Source: Yarrowia lipolytica (lineage: Eukaryota > Ascomycota > Dipodascomycetes > Dipodascales). From it: DNA of 64,000 bases. The stretch covers positions 2,170,001 through 2,234,000 of the forward strand of contig NC_090771.1 of the NCBI RefSeq assembly GCF_001761485.1. Direction: 5' to 3'. A model generated the notes under the pieces. It saw nothing but the letters and a program-made list of their open reading frames with translations. It made no database searches and had not been told where the DNA came from. The position numbers were made by a program, and so were the translations under genes. This document shows, piece by piece, positions 43,611 to 60,347 of this stretch. Each line of letters begins with the position of its first letter. Position 1 is the stretch's first letter.

Positions 43611-45861
43611 GTTATTTTAATGCATTCATTCTATATTTTCCCTTGCCACAGTATTGTCCCTCCACTGGGCGCGTTTGGGAGATTGTTCTACCAGGATGTA
43701 ACAAAGTACGAGTGCATATACGCATGCATATCACGGGAATAGGTCCACTGTAGGCAACGAGCAGCCTGCCTAAAGGGCGGGCGCTCGGTGATCTGCCATT
43801 CCAGAAACACAAGAGTGAGCATTCGTGGAAGTGCCGTGCCAATGTTCTTTAAGACCAGAAAGAGGAACAAAGGAACCAAACCCCTTTCATTCCGATCCCC
43901 TTGTTGAAGCATATGTGATGACCAGGGTTGGAAACTGGCCCTTCAGTAGAGCACATGCTTGTACTGCTTGTGGAGTCTCTTAGCACCAGTGCACCCCTTG
44001 TTCGATCTAACGGCTGCAATTAGTCGTAAGAGCTATTCTTTTCATAACTTACTCTACACCATGGCGGCTTCCGCCTTTCATGGAGTTAAGACATCCATGG
44101 AGTTAAGACATCCATGGAGCAAAGACATCCATGGAGTTAAGACATGAAAACCATTGCAGATGCGCTTGTTCTTTACGAGTAGCTACTGCCTGAGACGAAA
44201 ATGAAAGGATTTTTTCTTGTTTCTTCTTTAGTGGCTTGCAAGTAGCTAATGCACGAGGGAAATTACAGTAAAAACATTGAAGCGCGGGTCACTCGTTTTT
44301 CTTTCTTCTGGTGGCAAATATGGCGCGAATAAAGCGCCAGAAACATCCCGACAGGTCTCTCAAAATCTTTAGTGTTACTGTAATAATATATTTCCTTGTT
44401 TACAAAAAAAATAAAAAAATAGCGATGGAATAACTCTTTGCCGCTGCAACTATTGAAACACTTCAGATTAAGGAAGCAAAAGCTGATGGATGCTACTTTG
44501 ATCGAAACGTTTCATTCAGTCTTCACTAATATTTGTAGTGGGCGTGTATAGATTCTTGACCATTCTAATGCCATCGCGATAAATATGGTATATTGCACAG
44601 TTCATCGTACACTATCGATCTAGAACCCAGTTATAGTTTGGTACCGTACTACTTTACAGTAGCTCGGGATGCCACCTGGACAGGCCTCTTAACATGTAGT
44701 GGGTCGCAGCAACCTTGCGACGCTGTAGACAAGGAAACAAAGTCCGTGAGACTTTTTCACCTCATATTTGATGTTACTACTTACCGCAACTTGTAAAAGA
44801 CTGGCGGATAAGTTATAAGTTTAGGTTCAACCCAATATGCATTGATATGTGTAGAACAACTTCTACTTCTTCATACAGTCGAGACATCGAGTCAGACCAT
44901 TCATGTAAAATTGTTAGTGCGTGTTAGAATTTAATTTCGTGAACTAAACCACGTGACAGGAATCTTCGATTACCTCAGAGAGAGCAAGGCGTTATGAGGT
45001 TAGTGTTCACACTCTACTGTAGGACCAAAATCTGGAATTTCACCTTTAATATTAAAGTTTTTTAGCCGGGCAGAAAAAGGTTGTGTCTATCAGTTTGGAC
45101 ATCTGGTACGAGTACGAGCACCGGTACTATACTCGTAAAAAAAGAGTAGTGATACTGTAAAGCAGTACACGCACCATCACCACCCGCCTACGGAAGAAAG
45201 AAAGTTGACACCAGTAAGAAATATCGAGGCTTTTTTCACATGATACCTATACCCGAGCTGAGTCCATCCACCATGCATCTATCTGCAACTAATCCATGAA
45301 TCTCTGATGTTGCAACTGCTTGGAGGCACTTACTGTACCGTACCAGAAAGCCAGACACAGTTCCAATTAGAGCAGGGTAATTCACTAGTATACCCTAAGA
45401 TTATCTGTATATACATGTCCTTTCTACAAACACTTCGGTTAATTGTTGCCTAAAAATGCAGGTCACTACTGTATGTACGTGTGTACTTGTCAAACGTTTA
45501 TTTTCAAGCTCACGATATTTCTTGAGAATTGTATCGAACACCGGAGACCTGGATGTAGATGGAAAGACCGCCATAAACTTTATCTACTGTACGCTGCAAG
45601 CACAAGTACTAAGTTTTCACACCTCTTCCACACGTACTAACCAAATTCAACATCAGTTTGCACTAATGTGGCCCCCTACACTAGCGTGGGAATCGGCGAC
45701 GCGGCAGGCACTTGTTTACGATTTTTCATTTAACACGAGCTAGTTCAAAAGTAGCAGATCGGAAAGAGCTAAAAGACAACTTTTGTTTGCTGCTCGTACT
45801 TCAAATAAACCGTCCGTCCCACATTCCGAGAGTCTCTTGAACGACTTTTCTCCAATACAAA
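43611..45861. other. 2.25-kb intergenic region before the giant wall-protein gene
   Basis: No gene recognised. Contains four 17-bp tandem repeats (44079-44146), A-rich runs (44403-44420) and scattered GTAC words. The region directly before 45862 is the likely promoter of the giant gene. Confidence 0.5.
44079..44146 (+). repeat. Four tandem 17-bp repeats
   Basis: Unit CATGGAGTTAAGACATC, four contiguous copies: copies 1 and 2 exact, copy 3 with GCAA for GTTA, copy 4 differing only in its last base. Noncoding context. Seventeen is not a multiple of three, so it is unlikely to be coding. Confidence 0.95.
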
Positions 45862-48800
45862 ATGGTGAACTTGCAGTACTTCGCTGTGGCATTGGTTCTG
45901 CTATCGAGCCAGACAGAAGCTCAAGGGATACTTGACTTTTTCGGTTTCCATAGGCCGTCCACTTCGTCAAAGCAAGCTGGTTTAACCTCTTCTACTACGT
46001 CCACTCCTTCATATTTAACCGTTTACACCACTACTACCACGGAAACACTTACTTCGACCATTGCCTCTGTCAACACCGTGGAGCAAACCGTATACGAGCG
46101 AGTTATCGTAGACTGTGATACCTACAAACCTCCTGTCGCCGAAGGACTGATTCAATGCTTTTTCGACTGTTCCTCCCTTGCTATCGAGCTCACCGCCTGC
46201 CTCGGATCCAAAAGTTGCATGTGCCCTACAGCTCGACGTCGGCACAAGCAAGTCGACACCTGCCTGTCTTGTGGTGCTATTAATTGGGCTATCGGACAAG
46301 CCTTGAAGGGCTGCGATCTGCCCCCCTTGCCCCAATGTGCTACTCTTGTCACTTCAAAGCTAACATCCTACAAGACGAACTATTTGACTTCCTATGTGAC
46401 CACTACTCACCCAGTCACCGCCACGTCATCGCTCCCTATATCTACCAGTACTGTCCAGGGAGCCATCGCTGGGACACTCGATTATATTGGTGATGATGGA
46501 TTTTTGCGCCAACGGGTAACTGTTGTCCCTGAAGACCCACTACCTAACAATGGAGTCTCTCTTGGCTCCGATGGTTTGCCCAGTTACGGAACTCCGGTTA
46601 CCACAGTTACAGTCGTCGGCGACAAGGCTGGAACAGTCACTTACGTAGGTGATGAAGATGGTATTCCTACTGCACGAGTCACTGTAACTCCTGTGTTGAC
46701 TCTACTGACCACTGGTGAAGTCACTGGAAAAGGTGTGACTTTCGACTCGGACAGGCTCCCCATCTTAGTGGTAACCGAGACCCAGATCATCGAAGCCAGT
46801 GTTATGGGTCCTATTGCTGGTACTACTACCGAGGTAGGCAGCAATGGTATCGGCACTGTGATAGTGACAACTGTCCCAACAAATCCAGTTGGAACTACAA
46901 CGGTGGCTGGTCCCTCAGCTGGTAAAGAGACCTTCAAAGGAGCCGACGGACTCCCGTATGTACGCGATACGATCATTCCCGCAAAGACTGTCACCTATGT
47001 CGCTACGGAATCCTTCAACAGTACAGTGATTGGTTCTGATGGTATCGCCACAGCTTATGAGATTATCGGGCCTCAGTCAACAGTCTACACCACTGGCACT
47101 CTTAATGGACGAGATATTGTGTTTGGTACGGATGGCTGGCCAGTTATTATAGTAACCATAGACCCTCCTGTTATCACAGAGACGGCGTATGGACTTGATG
47201 AAGGTCTCATAACATTCGTTGGTGACGATGGTCTCGCAACGGCGAGGACCACTGCCAAACCTACCACCACTCTCACCACATGGGCCACAGTCGAGACCAT
47301 TGGTGTTGCCTCAGGCAAGGATGGCCAACCAGTTGTCATGATCTACAATACCCCAACTGGCCCTGTTGCGACAAAGACAACCTACGGATTGACATCTGGA
47401 ATTGAGACATCCACAGGTGAGGATGGCCTTCCTACTTTGATGACAACAATGCCACCGAAGTCCACATCTACTGTCCTTGGTCCAATTGTTGGTACTGAAG
47501 TCACTCTTGATGGTAATGGCGACCCTGTCAAGATTGTGACAGCGACTCCCACTGGTCCTGTTACAACTCAATTTGATGTTGGTCTCCAAGCAAACACCTA
47601 CACTTTTACTGGTGATGATGGACTGCCTACCGAGCGTGTGGTCTCAGCGCCAACAGTAACAGATTATGTCCTCGGGCCAATTGCAGGCGTTTCTCTTATT
47701 ATCGGTGATGATGGCGACGCAACAGCCAGATACACAACTACACCTGAGGGGCCAGTCACCACACTGTCGTCATTTGGACTGGAGGCTACCACTTTCACTA
47801 CAACTGGGGACGACGGACTGCCCACTGAACAGGTGATCCTGGGTCCCTCCCTAACAAAGTCAGTTCTGGGAACTGTCGCAGGTACTACACTGAGCTTTGA
47901 GGATGATGGAGCCCCTGTAATGGTTGTGACAGCCACACCCACAGCTCCAGTGACTACTCAGTTTTCTTACGGCCTCTATCCAACTACTATCACCATCACA
48001 GGTGAAGACGGGTTTCCTACAGAACGTGTTGTTGTTGGTCCTTCTGCCACTCAGACCGTTTACGGTACTGTTGAAGGAGCAGCTCTGTCATTTGATGCGA
48101 ACGATTTCCCAATTGAAGTCATAACCGTTACACCCTCAGGTCCTGTTACAACTCAGTCATCCTTTGGACTCATGGCCACCACATACACGTTTACTGGCGA
48201 AGATGGCTTACCCACAGAGCAGGCTGTCGAAGGTCCATCGTCCACTGAATTAATTCTTGGTGCAGTTGAAGGCACTAGCTTGAGTTTCAGAGATGATGGT
48301 ACCCCTATTATGATTGTCACTGCTACACCATCAGCTCCTGTCACCACCCAGCATTCATTTGGTCTCTATCCTACTACTTTGATTGTCACCGGGGAGGATG
48401 GCTTCCCTACCGAGAGAGTTGTCGATGGGCCGTCTGCAACCAAAACTGTTTTTGGAACAGTTGAAGGTGTGTCTCTGTCATTTGAGGGAAATGATTTCCC
48501 TGTTGAGGTTATCACAATAACCCCTTCGGGGCCTGTGGTGACGCAGTCGTCATTTGGATTGCAAGCCACGACTTTTACCTTCACAGGAAATGATGGGTTG
48601 CCAACTGAGCAGGTTGTTCAGGGTCCTTCTTTCACGAAGTCAGTTCTGGGAACTGTAGAAGGCACAATGTTAAGTTTTTTTAATGAAAGCCTTCCAATCA
48701 TGATCATCACTGCCACTCCAACCGCACCAGTGACAACTCAGCATTCTTATGGCTTTTATCCCACTACTTTTACAGTCACAGGCGAAGATGGCTTTCCGAC

Positions 48801-51800
48801 AGAGCGAGTTGCGGATGGACCATCTGCTATTAAAACTGTGTTTGGCACAGTTGAAGGCACTGCGTTGTCCTTTGTTGGAGAAGACTTCCCCGTTGAGATT
48901 ATCACTGTGATACCCTCCGGCCCCGTCACTACTATGTCGTCGTTTGGGTTGACCGCCACAACATACATCTTTACTGGTGAGGATGGACTGCCAACGGAAC
49001 AAGTCATTGAAGGCCCCTCTCTGACTAAGTCCATCCTTGGTACTGTTGCTGGAACAGCTCTGAGCTTCGGAGACGATGGTAACCCCGTTATGATCGTAAC
49101 TGCCACCCCTACAGCTCCAGTCACCACTCAAATTTCTTACGGCTTTCAACCCACAACGTTCACTACAACTGGCGACGACGGATTCCCCACCGAGCGTGTC
49201 GTGCTGGGACCTTCTGCCACGCATACGGTGTTCGGTACTATTGGTGGAACCTCTCTGCTGGTTCTTGATGAGTTTCCTATTGAGATCATTACAGTGGTGC
49301 CCACTGGCCCTGTAACGACTCAATCCTCTTTTGGATTCCAAGGTATCACGTATACTCTTACTGGAGAAGATGGATTGCCCACAGAGCAAGTTGTCCTGGG
49401 TCCATCTGCAACAACTTCAGTCTTAGGCACTGCTGCAGGTTCTGCATTGAGCTTTGGAGAAGACCACCTGCCTATTTTGATAGTCACGGAGACACCAACT
49501 GGTCCAGTTACGACTCAGTTCTCTTATGGTTCCTACCCTACTACCATCACTACTATCGGTGCAGATGGCTTCCCTACCGAGCGTGTTGTCAAGGGTCCCT
49601 CTGCTACACAGACTATTTACGGTACTGTTGAGGGTACGTCCATCAGCTTCGATGGTGATGATTTCCCAGTTGAGATTATCACAGTGATACCTACTGGACC
49701 TGTTACCACCCTTTCATCTTTCGGTCTTCAAGGAACTACTTACACGTTCATCGGAGATGATGGATTGCCTACGGAACAGATTATCCAAGGACCTTCATTT
49801 ACCAGGACTGTTCTCGGTACAGTTCCAGGTACAAATATGAGTCTAGCCGCTGGAAGTATTCCTATCATGGTTATTACGGCTACTCCCACAGCACCTGTGA
49901 CCACCCAAATCAGCTACGGACTTCACTCTACAACGTTCACCATCACAGGTGAGGACGGTTTTCCTACTGAACGCGTGGTGAAGGGACCTTCTGCTACTCA
50001 GACCGTTTTCGGCGCTGTTGAAGGCACAGCCCTATCGTTCGATGGTGAAGAGTTCCTTGTTGAGATTGTCACAGTGACTCCTTCTGCTCCTGTTGCTACC
50101 CAGTCATCTTTTGGTCTCAATGGTACCACCTTCATCTTCACTGGCGACGACGGTTTGCCTACAGAGCAGGTCATTCGGGGTCCCTCCTTCACGAAGTCGG
50201 TTCTTGGTACTGCTGCTGGTACCTCTCTGAGCTTTGGGGAAGAAGGTGTGCCAATGATGATTATCACCGCTACTCCAACCGCACCTGTCACTACCCAATT
50301 ATCCTATGGACTGAATTCTACTACATTCATTGTTACAGGGGAGGATGGCTTTCCAACAGAAAAAATCGTTGAAGGTCCGTATGCTACTAAGACAGTTTTT
50401 GGTACCGTTGAAGGCATTTCACTGTCAATGGTTGACAATGAATTTCCTGTGAAGATCATTACCGTTGTCCCTTCAGGACCTGTGTCCACTCAATCGTCCT
50501 TTGGTCTTCAAGGCACCACTTATACATTCACTGGTGAAGATGGGTTACCTACTGAAAAGGTGGTTCTAGGACCCTCTTCGACGAAATCGGTTTTCGGAAC
50601 TAACGCTGGAACAATGTTGAGTATTGGTGACGATGGAATTCCTGTCTTGGTTGTAACTGCTATGCCAACAGCTGCTGTAACTACCCAACATACTTTCGGC
50701 CTCTATCCTACTACCTTTGTCACCACAGGTGAAGATGGATATCCCACTGAACATGTTGTGTTGGGGCCATCAGCTACTCAGACCGTATACGGTACCGTTG
50801 AAGGAACCTCAATAGCGCTTGACAAAGACTTCCCCATCGAGATCATTACTGTGACACCCTCTGGACCAGTGACGACTCAATCTTCCTTCGGGCTGAATGG
50901 TACGACATACACAGTCACAGGTGAAGATGGTCTACCAACTGAACAAGTCGTCAAGGGCCCATCCTCGACAACGTCACTTCTTGGCACCGCTGCTGGGACT
51001 GTACTCAGTTTTGGGGATGATGATTTTCCAATCATGATTGTGACAGCAACTCCCACTGGTCCTGTCAATACCCAGTTCTCTTATGGCTTATACCCCACCA
51101 CTATCACCACAATTGGAAAAGATGGCTTTCCCACTGAGCGTGTCGTGAAGGGTCCTTCTTCTACGCAGACAGTTTACGGTACTGTTGAAGGAACTGCGAT
51201 CAGCTTTATTGATGACAATTTCCCCGTTGAGATCATCACCGTGATTCCGTCTACTCCTGTGACTTCTCAGTCGTCTTTTGGACTTCAAGCCACAGTTTAC
51301 ACATTTACTGGAAAGGATGGATTGCCTACAGAGCAAATTGTTAATGGGCCTTCCTTTACCAAATCTGTTTTTGGCACAGTTCCTGGTACAGAGCTGAGTC
51401 TGGCCGCCGGAAGCATTCCTGTCATGATTGTTACTGCTTCACCCACTGAACCTGTTACTACCCAGTACTCTTACGGACTCTTCCCTACGACTTCGGTTAT
51501 TACAGGTGGAGATGGATATCCAACAGAGGTTATCGTGTTGGGACCTTCAGCTACCCGCTCCATTTTGGGTACGGTTGAAGGTACAGCTCTGTCATACGAC
51601 AGCAATGGCTTCCCCGTTGAAGTCATCACCGCCACTCCCTCTGCCCCCGTGGCTACACAATTCTCCTATGGTCTCCAGGCCACCACTTTCAATTTCACTG
51701 GCGAGGATGGCCTACCAACCGAACAGGTTATACAAGGTCCATCTTCTACAACATCAGTTCTTGGTACAATTGTTGGTACTGCACTGAGTTTCAGAGAAGA

Positions 51801-54800
51801 AGGAGATCCAGTTATGGTTGTCACGGCCACACCCACAGCTCCCATTACTACGCAGCACTCTTTTGGCCTTTATCCTACTACTCTCACCTTCACTGGTGAG
51901 GATGGATTCCCCACGGAACAAGTTGTTGATTCCCCTTACGCGACCAAGACCGTGTTTGGTACGGTTGAAGGAGTTTCATTGTCGTTTAATGGCAACAACA
52001 TCCCTGTAGAGATTGTCACAGTGATTCCCCTGGAACCTGTAACTACTCAATATTCGTTTGGATTAGAGGCGACGAATTACACCTTCACAGGTGAGGATGG
52101 TTTGCCTACTGAGCAAGTTATCAAGGGCCCTTCAACCACCATGTCAACTCTTGGCACTTCAGCTGGAACTCTCTCGAGCTTTGGTGATGACAGTGCCCCA
52201 GTAATGATCGTGACAGCTACTCCGAAAGCGCCTGGAACTACTCAGTTCTCTTACGGCTTTTATCCCACCACCATAACTACTACAGGAGATGATGGATTCC
52301 CGACAGAGAGAGTTATCCTGGGACCTTCGTCTACCCAGACTGTCTTTGGTACTACCGAGGGAGCTGCCTTGTCTTTTGATCTTAACAACACCCCCGTGGA
52401 GATCATTACCGTGATTCCTTCTGGCCCTGTGACTACATTGACATCATACGGGATCCACGAAACTAAGTACACATTCATAGGTGAAGATGGGTTGCCCACT
52501 GTACAAGTGCTTAAAGCTCACCCATTCACAACGAAGGTGTTTGATACTATTGCCGGTACATCAATGAGTCTTGGAGATGATGGCATTTCCATGATAAATA
52601 TTACAACTATACCGACAGCTGCAGTTACGACAGACCACTCAATTGGGCTTTATCCTACCACTATGACTGTCACTGGTGAAAATGACCTCACTATAGAACG
52701 ATCACTTGACGGGGAATCAGCTACAAATACCGTAATCGGTAAAAGTGATAAGACTTCATTAAGTGATGGTCTAGACCCTCTAGCCACTGAGTCTATTAAG
52801 GACATCACTTCTGCTCCTGTTGCAACGCAATCACCTCTCGGGCCAAAAACAACCACTTCCATCGAGGATGATTTGCCCACAGAAAACGCCATCCGAACCA
52901 GCTCTTTGATCGAAATTTTTGAATCCTCGGTCGAGATGACCAACGCTTCATCAGTTTCTCCTGTGACCACTCAGTCAATCTATGGTTTGCACGCCACAAC
53001 CTTCACCACCACGGGGGAAGATGGATCTCCTACTGAAAGAGTCACTCTTGGACCTTCAGCCACCAAGACTGTATTTGGTACCGCCGAAGGAACTGAATTA
53101 GTGGTAGGCGATGACAACCTTCCTACTGCGGTCATCATTGAAATTCCTTCGGGACCAGTTACTAACCAGTCTACATTTGGATTTGATTCTACTACCTACA
53201 TCCAGACTGGAGACGATGGGTTGCTCACCGAACATGTGACACAAGCTCCTTCTGCTGCTCAGACAATAAATGGAAATGTGGAAGGCTCAACGCTGGAGTT
53301 TAGCGAAGACGGACTGTCCACAAAGCTGGTTACTGTGCTCCCCTCTGGAGCAGTGGCTTCCAAGACGCCGTACGATATTGAGGCTACTACTTTGACAGAG
53401 CCAGGCCAAGACGGCCTTGCAACTGAACATGTGATTCAGGGGTCTTACTCTACGAGTTCCATCGTTGGTACAGCCGAAGGTACTCTTTTGACCCTTGGGG
53501 CCGACAGTCTACCAATTTCAATTGTCACGGCAACAACTGTCCCTGTTATTCTCCACAGCACACCCGAGCTGGTATCCACGTCTACTTCCTCTGCAAATGC
53601 TAAAGATTTAACAACCGAGAATGCTGCTAATACAGCTGTTGAATTTGCTAATAACACCTTACCAGCCGGGGCTGATGGTACCTCAAGTGTAGACAGCACT
53701 CAGTCCCCCGATAATGGTTCACTTGAATCTACTCTTGATATCCATTCCACTACAGCTACTGAAATCGTGGAGCATGGCATTCCCACAAGTGTTGTCTCAT
53801 CTGGTGCTACTATGATTGGTGATGTAGCAAACGAGTCTACTTCAAAAGATACAGCTCCCATATGGGTAGTAAGTGAAGCTTCCGTGGCTACAGAAAGCTC
53901 AACTGACGTTGTCTCTCACTTATCGTTTCTTGAGGCTAGCAAGACTACTACTATGGTACACACACAGACAATGAAGCCTGACATTGTCTTCTTTTCCAAC
54001 TCTACCCCCATTGAAGTGGCTGCTTTCGACACCTCTTCTACTCACCATTCTGTCGCAAGTAACGCTGTTCCGTCGGTTCCCACGTCAGTGGAAGTCAGGT
54101 CGTCAACCTTCACAGAAGTCCAGACGATTGTTATTCCTGTATCCGAGACATCCATTGAGACTTCAATTATCTCTGGACCCGAGACTTCCATTATCGCTGT
54201 GTCCAAGGAGACTTCGATTGTCTCTGTACCCGACAAAACTTCGATTGTCTCTGTACTTGAGTCTGCAGTTGTCTCTGTACTCGAGACATCCATTATTTCA
54301 GCTTCTGGGTCCAGCACCATTACAGCCACAGCCTCCACTTCTGCTTTGCCTATGACTTCCTACTCTGAGTCTTCTACCTTACTCGGCACACCGTCTCATG
54401 GGAATATCAAGCCAGAGTCATCCAGACTGGCTGATACCGATTCGGAGGAAGATAATACCTCCACATACACCCCTGGCATCTCAACGCCTACTCTATCTAC
54501 TCCTGGGTCTAACTTCACAGTTGATGACTTGCTTAAAAAGCCCCAGGGCTCTACTTCTGAGCCTACTAGACAAATCAGCAACAATGACGAGGTAACTAAT
54601 GGTGCCATTATTTCTAGTGCAAACACTTCTCCTGTACATTTGCCTAGCACCACTAGTGTCTCCTTCGACGCTGCTACCCCCAGCCAAGTTGCACCGCCTG
54701 TAGAGGGCTATCCTAAACCTATGCAAGCTAACGGTGGGTCTTCCCATTCGATACCCTTCACAGGACTACTCACTACAGCTATTTTCTTTATTCTTTTCTG

Positions 54801-54807
54801 GATCTGA
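45862..54807 (+). CDS. Giant secreted repeat protein, CFEM-like domain, probable GPI anchor (adhesin/wall type)
   Basis: 2981 codons without an intron. Residues 1-20 form a signal peptide (MVNLQYFAVALVLLSSQTEA). A Ser/Thr stretch is followed by a ten-cysteine domain at 85-159. Its core spacing C-x3-C-x9-C-x5-C-x-C-x12-C-x2-C (Cys99 to Cys137) resembles fungal CFEM domains. From about residue 205 the protein is built of roughly 65-residue repeats with motifs GPVTTQ, TFTGEDGLPTEQV, GPS.TKSVLGT and IVTATP. Twenty-five units at 47749-52620 alternate strictly between two types. Later units decay into a Ser/Thr-rich stalk (about 2560-2950) with ETSI repeats. The end ANGGSSHSIPFTG then a hydrophobic LLTTAIFFILFWI fits GPI attachment and wall cross-linking. 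Abundant Thr/Ser suggests heavy O-mannosylation. Likely role: adhesion or surface coat; inferred from architecture, not family identity. Confidence 0.9.
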   Translation: MVNLQYFAVALVLLSSQTEAQGILDFFGFHRPSTSSKQAGLTSSTTSTPSYLTVYTTTTTETLTSTIASVNTVEQTVYERVIVDCDTYKPPVAEGLIQCFFDCSSLAIELTACLGSKSCMCPTARRRHKQVDTCLSCGAINWAIGQALKGCDLPPLPQCATLVTSKLTSYKTNYLTSYVTTTHPVTATSSLPISTSTVQGAIAGTLDYIGDDGFLRQRVTVVPEDPLPNNGVSLGSDGLPSYGTPVTTVTVVGDKAGTVTYVGDEDGIPTARVTVTPVLTLLTTGEVTGKGVTFDSDRLPILVVTETQIIEASVMGPIAGTTTEVGSNGIGTVIVTTVPTNPVGTTTVAGPSAGKETFKGADGLPYVRDTIIPAKTVTYVATESFNSTVIGSDGIATAYEIIGPQSTVYTTGTLNGRDIVFGTDGWPVIIVTIDPPVITETAYGLDEGLITFVGDDGLATARTTAKPTTTLTTWATVETIGVASGKDGQPVVMIYNTPTGPVATKTTYGLTSGIETSTGEDGLPTLMTTMPPKSTSTVLGPIVGTEVTLDGNGDPVKIVTATPTGPVTTQFDVGLQANTYTFTGDDGLPTERVVSAPTVTDYVLGPIAGVSLIIGDDGDATARYTTTPEGPVTTLSSFGLEATTFTTTGDDGLPTEQVILGPSLTKSVLGTVAGTTLSFEDDGAPVMVVTATPTAPVTTQFSYGLYPTTITITGEDGFPTERVVVGPSATQTVYGTVEGAALSFDANDFPIEVITVTPSGPVTTQSSFGLMATTYTFTGEDGLPTEQAVEGPSSTELILGAVEGTSLSFRDDGTPIMIVTATPSAPVTTQHSFGLYPTTLIVTGEDGFPTERVVDGPSATKTVFGTVEGVSLSFEGNDFPVEVITITPSGPVVTQSSFGLQATTFTFTGNDGLPTEQVVQGPSFTKSVLGTVEGTMLSFFNESLPIMIITATPTAPVTTQHSYGFYPTTFTVTGEDGFPTERVADGPSAIKTVFGTVEGTALSFVGEDFPVEIITVIPSGPVTTMSSFGLTATTYIFTGEDGLPTEQVIEGPSLTKSILGTVAGTALSFGDDGNPVMIVTATPTAPVTTQISYGFQPTTFTTTGDDGFPTERVVLGPSATHTVFGTIGGTSLLVLDEFPIEIITVVPTGPVTTQSSFGFQGITYTLTGEDGLPTEQVVLGPSATTSVLGTAAGSALSFGEDHLPILIVTETPTGPVTTQFSYGSYPTTITTIGADGFPTERVVKGPSATQTIYGTVEGTSISFDGDDFPVEIITVIPTGPVTTLSSFGLQGTTYTFIGDDGLPTEQIIQGPSFTRTVLGTVPGTNMSLAAGSIPIMVITATPTAPVTTQISYGLHSTTFTITGEDGFPTERVVKGPSATQTVFGAVEGTALSFDGEEFLVEIVTVTPSAPVATQSSFGLNGTTFIFTGDDGLPTEQVIRGPSFTKSVLGTAAGTSLSFGEEGVPMMIITATPTAPVTTQLSYGLNSTTFIVTGEDGFPTEKIVEGPYATKTVFGTVEGISLSMVDNEFPVKIITVVPSGPVSTQSSFGLQGTTYTFTGEDGLPTEKVVLGPSSTKSVFGTNAGTMLSIGDDGIPVLVVTAMPTAAVTTQHTFGLYPTTFVTTGEDGYPTEHVVLGPSATQTVYGTVEGTSIALDKDFPIEIITVTPSGPVTTQSSFGLNGTTYTVTGEDGLPTEQVVKGPSSTTSLLGTAAGTVLSFGDDDFPIMIVTATPTGPVNTQFSYGLYPTTITTIGKDGFPTERVVKGPSSTQTVYGTVEGTAISFIDDNFPVEIITVIPSTPVTSQSSFGLQATVYTFTGKDGLPTEQIVNGPSFTKSVFGTVPGTELSLAAGSIPVMIVTASPTEPVTTQYSYGLFPTTSVITGGDGYPTEVIVLGPSATRSILGTVEGTALSYDSNGFPVEVITATPSAPVATQFSYGLQATTFNFTGEDGLPTEQVIQGPSSTTSVLGTIVGTALSFREEGDPVMVVTATPTAPITTQHSFGLYPTTLTFTGEDGFPTEQVVDSPYATKTVFGTVEGVSLSFNGNNIPVEIVTVIPLEPVTTQYSFGLEATNYTFTGEDGLPTEQVIKGPSTTMSTLGTSAGTLSSFGDDSAPVMIVTATPKAPGTTQFSYGFYPTTITTTGDDGFPTERVILGPSSTQTVFGTTEGAALSFDLNNTPVEIITVIPSGPVTTLTSYGIHETKYTFIGEDGLPTVQVLKAHPFTTKVFDTIAGTSMSLGDDGISMINITTIPTAAVTTDHSIGLYPTTMTVTGENDLTIERSLDGESATNTVIGKSDKTSLSDGLDPLATESIKDITSAPVATQSPLGPKTTTSIEDDLPTENAIRTSSLIEIFESSVEMTNASSVSPVTTQSIYGLHATTFTTTGEDGSPTERVTLGPSATKTVFGTAEGTELVVGDDNLPTAVIIEIPSGPVTNQSTFGFDSTTYIQTGDDGLLTEHVTQAPSAAQTINGNVEGSTLEFSEDGLSTKLVTVLPSGAVASKTPYDIEATTLTEPGQDGLATEHVIQGSYSTSSIVGTAEGTLLTLGADSLPISIVTATTVPVILHSTPELVSTSTSSANAKDLTTENAANTAVEFANNTLPAGADGTSSVDSTQSPDNGSLESTLDIHSTTATEIVEHGIPTSVVSSGATMIGDVANESTSKDTAPIWVVSEASVATESSTDVVSHLSFLEASKTTTMVHTQTMKPDIVFFSNSTPIEVAAFDTSSTHHSVASNAVPSVPTSVEVRSSTFTEVQTIVIPVSETSIETSIISGPETSIIAVSKETSIVSVPDKTSIVSVLESAVVSVLETSIISASGSSTITATASTSALPMTSYSESSTLLGTPSHGNIKPESSRLADTDSEEDNTSTYTPGISTPTLSTPGSNFTVDDLLKKPQGSTSEPTRQISNNDEVTNGAIISSANTSPVHLPSTTSVSFDAATPSQVAPPVEGYPKPMQANGGSSHSIPFTGLLTTAIFFILFWI
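47749..52620 (+). repeat. Coding array of 25 alternating ~195-bp repeats
   Basis: Each unit encodes about 65 residues and carries one (E/D)DG(L/F/Y)PT motif. Type A units read SSFGL...DGLPTEQV...GPS.TKSVLGT...MIVTATP. Type B units read SYGLYPTT...DGFPTERV...GPSATQTVYGTVEG...FPVEIITV. The L and F/Y versions alternate without exception over 25 units, so the true unit of duplication is about 390 bp. Degenerate relatives extend the array on both sides (about 46480-53520). Confidence 0.9.
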
Positions 54808-60251: not shown

Positions 60252-60340
60252 GAGGACGTGGCGTAATGGTAGCGCATTGGATTTCGGTTCTTGTGAACGA
60301 CGTCCTCCAAAGGCTGCGGGTTCGAGTCCTGTCGTCCTCT
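60252..60340 (+). tRNA. tRNA-Arg (anticodon UCG) with a 17-nt intron
   Basis: Acceptor GAGGACG pairs fully with CGTCCTC (60333-60339). D-arm TGGCGTAATGGTAGCGC carries the A box; anticodon stem TTGGA/TCCAA; anticodon TCG at 60284-60286. The intron at 60288-60304 sits one base 3' of the anticodon, as in eukaryotes. Variable loop of five bases; T-arm GCGGG-TTCGAGT-CCTGT carries the B box. The discriminator base is T60340 and CCA is not encoded. It reads CGA (and CGG by wobble), the arginine codon used most in the neighbouring genes. Confidence 0.95.
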
Positions 60341-60347
60341 CTTTTTT
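60341..60347 (+). terminator. Pol III terminator after tRNA-Arg
   Basis: C followed by six T directly after the discriminator base. Confidence 0.85.

Follow-up and report, generated by a model that had tools for sequence, protein, structure and literature searches.

The window analysed here is 64,000 nucleotides long and contains one very large gene; it covers positions 2170001-2234000 of C2, one of the six contigs of a 20.5-Mb genome. Its coding frame is open on the forward strand from an ATG at 45862 to a stop codon ending at 54807, encodes 2981 amino acids and needs no intron, confirming the single unbroken 2981-codon gene described in the initial annotation; the features below lie on the same (+) strand and are given in window positions unless a contig is named. 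The order of parts proposed there, in which a cysteine head is followed by a stalk of repeats, a base rich in Ser and Thr and an end of GPI type, was likewise borne out as far as sequence can tell. The protein is composed of 18.1% Thr and 9.6% Ser, with 16 N-glycosylation sequons, and matched no Pfam family at E up to 1. GC3 of the giant gene was 0.41, the lowest among 13 hand-picked likely-gene frames in the window (others 0.50-0.69), which does not suggest high expression. A full-length identical protein is the representative of a database cluster of nine member sequences on five contigs. Protein searches yielded, among the matches listed, only the gene itself and one other sequence, P0003, and one search came back empty; the suggestion that the protein is lineage-specific is not contradicted by these matches. 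Literature searches listed nothing recognisable as the giant gene, its Cys module or its stalk repeat. Elsewhere in the window, a 17-bp repeat of 3.9 copies (44079-44145) lies in the 2.2-kb gap upstream of the giant gene, and a tRNA-Arg (TCG) gene of 90 bases lies at 60252-60341.

The protein begins with a probable signal peptide (residues 1-21; 45862-45924), recognised by its hydrophobic N-terminus and with a predicted cleavage place, followed by a Ser/Thr-rich linker (residues 22-84; 45925-46113), a ten-Cys head module (residues 85-159; 46114-46338) and a stalk of Thr/Gly/Pro repeats (residues 194-2499). The base (residues 2500-2954; 53359-54723) was delimited by its Ser/Thr-rich composition, Ser and Thr making up 16.0% and 15.5% of residues 2401-2981. 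A 24-bp tandem repeat at 54157-54296 (tandem-repeat finder, 5.6 copies, 69% matches) encodes Ile/Val/Ser/Thr-rich 8-mers, and these Ile/Val-rich 8-mers near the stalk base could be aggregation-prone. A QAN motif (residues 2955-2957; 54724-54732), the probable GPI attachment site, precedes a hydrophobic C-terminus (residues 2964-2981; 54751-54804). The most hydrophobic 15-mers near the two ends start at residues 1 (mean 1.80) and 2967 (mean 2.11); one internal 15-mer, starting at residue 2550, is also hydrophobic (mean 1.96). The protein appears to follow the general pattern of GPI wall proteins, with an N-terminal signal and a hydrophobic C-terminus after a small-residue site. Among 17 sequences inspected (16 frames of the same genome and P0003), 12 have a hydrophobic C-terminus, and in 10 of these QAN starts 23-27 residues from the last residue, counted with a cut at a mean of 1.5 that was set after the values were known; the motif is absent from two frames of the family described below, L010 and L028.

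The core of the stalk is an exact tandem array of 26 units (residues 498-2185; 47353-52416), 24 of them 65 and two 64 residues long, in which A and B units alternate according to lag identity and unit alignment. Half-repeat profiles extend the stalk into a degenerate first part (residues 194-497; 46441-47352), and a degenerate last part follows the array (residues 2186-2499; 52417-53358). Self-identity in residues 501-2250 was 0.49 at lag 65, 0.55 at lag 130 and 0.42 at lag 195, against a background mean of 0.09 over lags 10-199; the repeat therefore stands far above chance, in keeping with the stalk of ~65-residue repeats noted initially. Lags 31 and 34, which sum to 65, gave identities of 0.18 and 0.16 in the same residues, indicating that each unit consists of two half-units; an A/B pair spans 130 residues. 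The half-units, of ~32 residues, follow the pattern G..GT......DG......T.P. A half-repeat profile built from relatives and P0003, without seeds from the window, scored 42 half-units above 3 bits across residues 194-2500, and one shuffled copy had none; with window seeds the number rose to 56.

Residue identity between units of the same parity was 0.640, compared with 0.523 between units of different parity, a difference reached in none of 5000 relabellings. Units eight apart were 0.675 identical, above the 0.640 ± 0.013 obtained by within-parity reshuffling (reached in 20 of 5000). The two 64-residue units (residues 1083-1146, 49108-49299; residues 1602-1665, 50665-50856) lie 519 residues apart and are each one residue short in the same stretch, the gap having been set by eye at one column in both, and the signature LAAGSIP occurs at residue 1328 (49843-49863) and again 519 residues downstream at residue 1847 (51400-51420). 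Together, the likeness of units eight apart, the paired short units and the paired signature are traces of an eight-unit (519-residue) duplication. To judge from these patterns, half-units most likely gave rise to units and units to pairs as the array grew, with later copying of a block of about eight units. AlphaFold2 models of three stalk units (21 window rows; mean pLDDT 37.3, strands shown) and of the head (single sequence; mean pLDDT 43.9) were both too poor to use. Searches against solved structures gave one match for the stalk profile (E 0.91) and, for the whole protein, an outer-envelope pore protein (E 0.022), both taken as chance.

Within the array, protein sequence has been kept while DNA has diverged. 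Pairwise comparison of 24 units, leaving out the two of 64 residues, gave a mean pN of 0.27, a mean pS of 0.73 and 60% DNA identity (276 pairs); random codons for the same residues gave a pS of 0.764 ± 0.011 (20 samples of 60 pairs), so that synonymous divergence is near saturation and slightly under it. At fourfold sites encoding the same residue, codons agreed in 171 of 580 pairs (0.29) at lag 65 and 181 of 573 (0.32) at lag 130, where 0.31 was expected. Agreement at lag 519 was 163 of 461 (0.35; reached in 3 of 200 shuffles), a faint trace of the later block copy. The tandem-repeat finder, run with periods up to 500 bases, reported nothing in the 65-residue array. Synonymous sites so near saturation mark the array as old and not being homogenised. 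Saturation by itself shows that the array is old and has not been homogenised recently; to add that selection holds its length would be a further step. With the protein kept and the DNA diverged, neither slippage nor unequal crossing over should easily alter the length.

The gene was initially taken as a one-off, a view that did not hold: it belongs to a modular family of stalk and Cys-module relatives in its own genome, where all search counts are lower bounds. Stalk repeats were found at six other loci: L009 (contig C4), L010 (C3), L011 and L030 (C1), L012 (C5) and a 6587-codon frame (C3, 829741-849504; L022-L024) with four Cys modules, ~66-residue stalk repeats and a QAN tail. The relative at positions 1655-6621 of L009 has the same head and is split across two frames in the assembly; a 644-codon frame is open there on the strand opposite the repeats. 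L030 (C1, 1317001-1324000) is a broken near-copy of the L011 gene, spread over several frames, its front end 93% identical to that of L011. The stalk frame at positions 4166-5956 of L012, near the start of C5, is without a clear start or tail. A single stalk-like unit was also seen in three 252-codon frames of identical translation (L031, L032 and L033), which lie at the right end of C1 and at both ends of C4.

When eight front ends were compared all-against-all by BLASTP, the window protein grouped with L009 (E 2.6e-15), and L011 grouped with L030 and P0003 (E 2e-30 or better); there may be a relationship between L010 and L012 (E 0.007-0.008), and no match between groups fell below E 0.2. Front ends of three or more kinds are found on the same stalk repeat, which fits a spacer stalk with the front end as the working part. 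A Pfam match of L011 to COX2 (6.3e-5, just over the cut-off) lies inside the repeats and was set aside as chance, as were the other Pfam matches of stalk relatives, which were inside repeats or below cut-off; the L010 front end matched nothing among solved structures below E 0.22. The L009 array shares codons in 215 of 360 pairs at lag 34 (0.60; expected 0.35-0.36), and residues 801-4000 of the 6587-codon frame in 864 of 1374 at lag 66 (0.63; expected 0.38), values reached in 0 of 200 shuffles in each case. In residues 4001-6200 of the latter frame, codons agreed at lag 186 in 389 of 658 pairs, with 0.32 expected, but agreement was near expectation at lag 62 (175 of 513). Saturation is apparent in the L010 array at lag 31 as well as lag 62, and in the L011 array at lag 31 (29 of 107), not at lag 62 (45 of 101; 0 of 200 shuffles reach this). 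In being old and not homogenised, the array of the giant gene differs from those of two or more relatives in its genome.

All ten Cys of the protein fall within the head, which measures 75 residues from first to last Cys and has the spacing C-x13-C-x3-C-x9-C-x5-C-x1-C-x12-C-x2-C-x13-C-x7-C. The head matched no Pfam family at E up to 10. Its closest copy in the own-genome search was that of L009 (E 9.8e-9), other single copies matching weakly (E 0.002 to 0.6). With the L016 module copy as query, at least 38 matches in 13 open frames were obtained at E up to 0.1, among them the window head (E 0.065) and the modules of the 6587-codon frame (E 1.3e-9 to 5.3e-6); a direct comparison of the front end of that frame with the window head gave no match (E 1.7). 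The window head also contains the core of the module, C-x3-C-x9/10-C-x5..9-C-x1-C-x11/12-C-x2-C. Pattern searches, which demand Cys at set places, found 27 full module copies in 7 of 11 sources, and a further script added the four copies of the 6587-codon frame and, from another six frames, 11 core copies, for a total of 42 copies in 14 open frames of the genome. Frames L013-L018 and L025-L029, eleven in all, carry one to six Cys modules each, with mostly Ser-rich linkers. In an alignment of 19 module copies chosen from the 27 strict hits, the invariance of Cys is partly by construction, since the pattern demanded Cys and the rows were picked from its hits. The constancy of the gaps of 9 and 12 in all 27 strict hits is not, as the pattern permitted 7-12 and 7-18; the 15 additional hits also include gaps of 10 and 11. 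A Pfam scan of 19 module copies (window, L009, L013-L016 and L018) gave nothing below E 0.02 and no credible match. Against solved structures the module profile found nothing, and matches of the head to lin-28 (E 0.013) and, more weakly, to spike proteins were taken as chance.

We favour, with a probability of about 0.55, the reading that the giant protein is a GPI-type wall glycoprotein that would hold its head outside the wall in the manner of an adhesin. The order of parts, the structure and age of the repeat and the family are observations. From these, the signal peptide would direct entry into the ER, the hydrophobic tail would be exchanged for a GPI anchor near QAN, and the anchor remnant would keep the protein in the wall. 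The ~2300 Thr-rich repeat residues, presumably O-glycosylated, would form a long stalk carrying a single disulfide-bonded head past the wall, where the head may bind something; this wall-spanning reach is estimated from the number of repeat residues. Several observations run against an adhesin: the low GC3, the small head (known adhesin heads are larger than its 75 residues), the multiple copies of the module in other frames and the lack of QAN in L010 and L028. Secretion, like glycosylation, is a prediction for the giant protein, and its anchoring, O-glycosylation and adhesion are proposed by analogy with Flo, Epa and Als proteins as described in the available part of PMC6308950.

A serious rival, to which we give appreciably less weight, is that the protein is a structural or shielding coat, a mucin-like layer that would set wall thickness, hydrophobicity or permeability, with the Cys module cross-linking and binding no outside ligand. 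Repetition of the module elsewhere, mostly between Ser-rich linkers, would suit such a wall-structural role too and makes the module look like a building block rather than a receptor; it is harder to reconcile a coat with the giant protein, in which just one head caps a very long stalk, or with relatives that carry unlike front ends on the same stalk. Somewhat more speculative again is the idea of an undescribed surface system of interchangeable heads on a shared stalk repeat. The giant protein would here be a ruler of fixed length, its A/B units held by selection and its diverged DNA stopping length change, so that the head sits at a set distance from the wall, and the codon-sharing relatives would be the variable arm.

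The head was also initially described as CFEM-like. The CFEM domain has eight Cys at fixed places, forming four disulfides, and an Asp as haem ligand, according to the available part of PMC13030711. Eight of the ten head Cys resemble this arrangement in order and rough spacing, with gaps of 3, 9, 5, 1, 12, 2 and 13 against 3, 9, 7, 1, 9, 4 and 15 in the CFEM frame L019, and the likeness is limited to that, as profile tests failed. In the own-genome search the CFEM profile PF05730 found L019 and L020 over the cut-off and a third locus below it, and did not find the giant gene; only one of the 19 module copies reached CFEM in the Pfam scan (E 1.2), and the profile-profile probability of the module against two CFEM sequences was 1.5%. 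The haem-ligand Asp of CFEM sits between Cys 3 and 4. At the corresponding place among the eight Cys the head has LGSKS, with no Asp, where L019 has DALNKVG and L020 SSLNQIR; the test is weak, because L020, CFEM by profile, also lacks Asp there. CFEM domains fold as a helical basket, and the head model (mean pLDDT 43.9) was too poor to be set against that fold. A distant link between the Cys module and CFEM may exist, and we consider it very improbable that the protein is a CFEM protein on a long stalk, capturing haem or iron.

Nor do we give much credit to a variable-length repeat gene like SSR1, in which slippage would vary the surface: the gene does encode tandem repeats in a surface-type protein, and the related arrays of L009 and of the first part of the 6587-codon frame share codons between units, but the giant gene has lost synonymous memory at lags 65 and 130 and its array left the tandem-repeat finder blank. 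That the gene is a relic, rarely or never expressed with its frame still open, would agree with its low GC3 and is scarcely believable given 2981 stop-free codons, a pN far under pS between units and the nine-member database cluster represented by the identical protein.

The family to which the giant gene belongs and the divergence of its repeats make it worth studying. Surface tandem repeats in yeast can act as hypermutable length switches, as described for the structural wall protein SSR1 in the available part of PMC5491155. Here one genome combines a diverged array of some age with fresh ones from the same repeat family, so that a single laboratory yeast would serve to test whether selection favours a changing or a constant stalk length. 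No Pfam entry fits the 19 scanned copies of the Cys module, which offers a handle for annotating a set of large wall-type proteins.

Flo, Epa and Als proteins are built in a similar way, with a head on a stalk of repeats and a tail of GPI type (PMC6308950, available part), and Flo1/5/9/10 of S. cerevisiae are, in the same source, likewise secreted proteins with a head, a Ser/Thr-rich tandem stalk and a GPI tail. Unlike Flo proteins, the giant protein has a Cys module as head and repeats that are not homogenised, and Pfam scans of the whole protein and of residues 1-446 matched neither PA14 (PF07691) nor Flocculin (PF00624), nor Candida_ALS_N or Candida_ALS. The stalk sequence TGEDGLPTE recalls, presumably and by eye only, the flocculin repeat; the Flocculin profile was silent in the own-genome search, as were its controls. 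Als proteins of Candida share the plan and have beta-rich tandem repeats (PMC6308950, available part), and the poor stalk model shows strands, but the Als families are among those unmatched. Hyr/Iff proteins are also GPI-type, large and Ser/Thr-rich, whereas Hyphal_reg_CWP was unmatched in the giant protein and, in an own-genome search run without a eukaryotic control, gave no match. The initial view that the repeat does not match the Flo, Als, Hyr or Epa families agrees, for Flo, Als and Hyr, with the lack of Flocculin, Candida_ALS and Hyphal_reg_CWP matches; the repeat had no other Pfam match either. CFEM proteins (Rbt5, Pga7, Csa2) have eight Cys similar in order and rough spacing, as compared with L019 and L020 only; the giant protein differs in its ten head Cys, its lack of a profile match and the absence of Asp at the haem-ligand place. 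Y. lipolytica has adhesin-like genes under the control of YlRim101, Mhy1 and Fts2, which, in the available parts of PMC8265631 and PMC9769893, have in common with the giant gene a signal, Ser/Thr-rich repeats and a GPI site. Their repeats there (SSTGGADA, NGNGSDGS, PESSEA and others) are short and different from the 65-residue unit, and the giant gene could be in the tables of those studies. The profile tests made place the giant protein in none of the Flo, Als, Hyr and CFEM families, and on sequence grounds it is a yeast protein of the adhesin-like kind.
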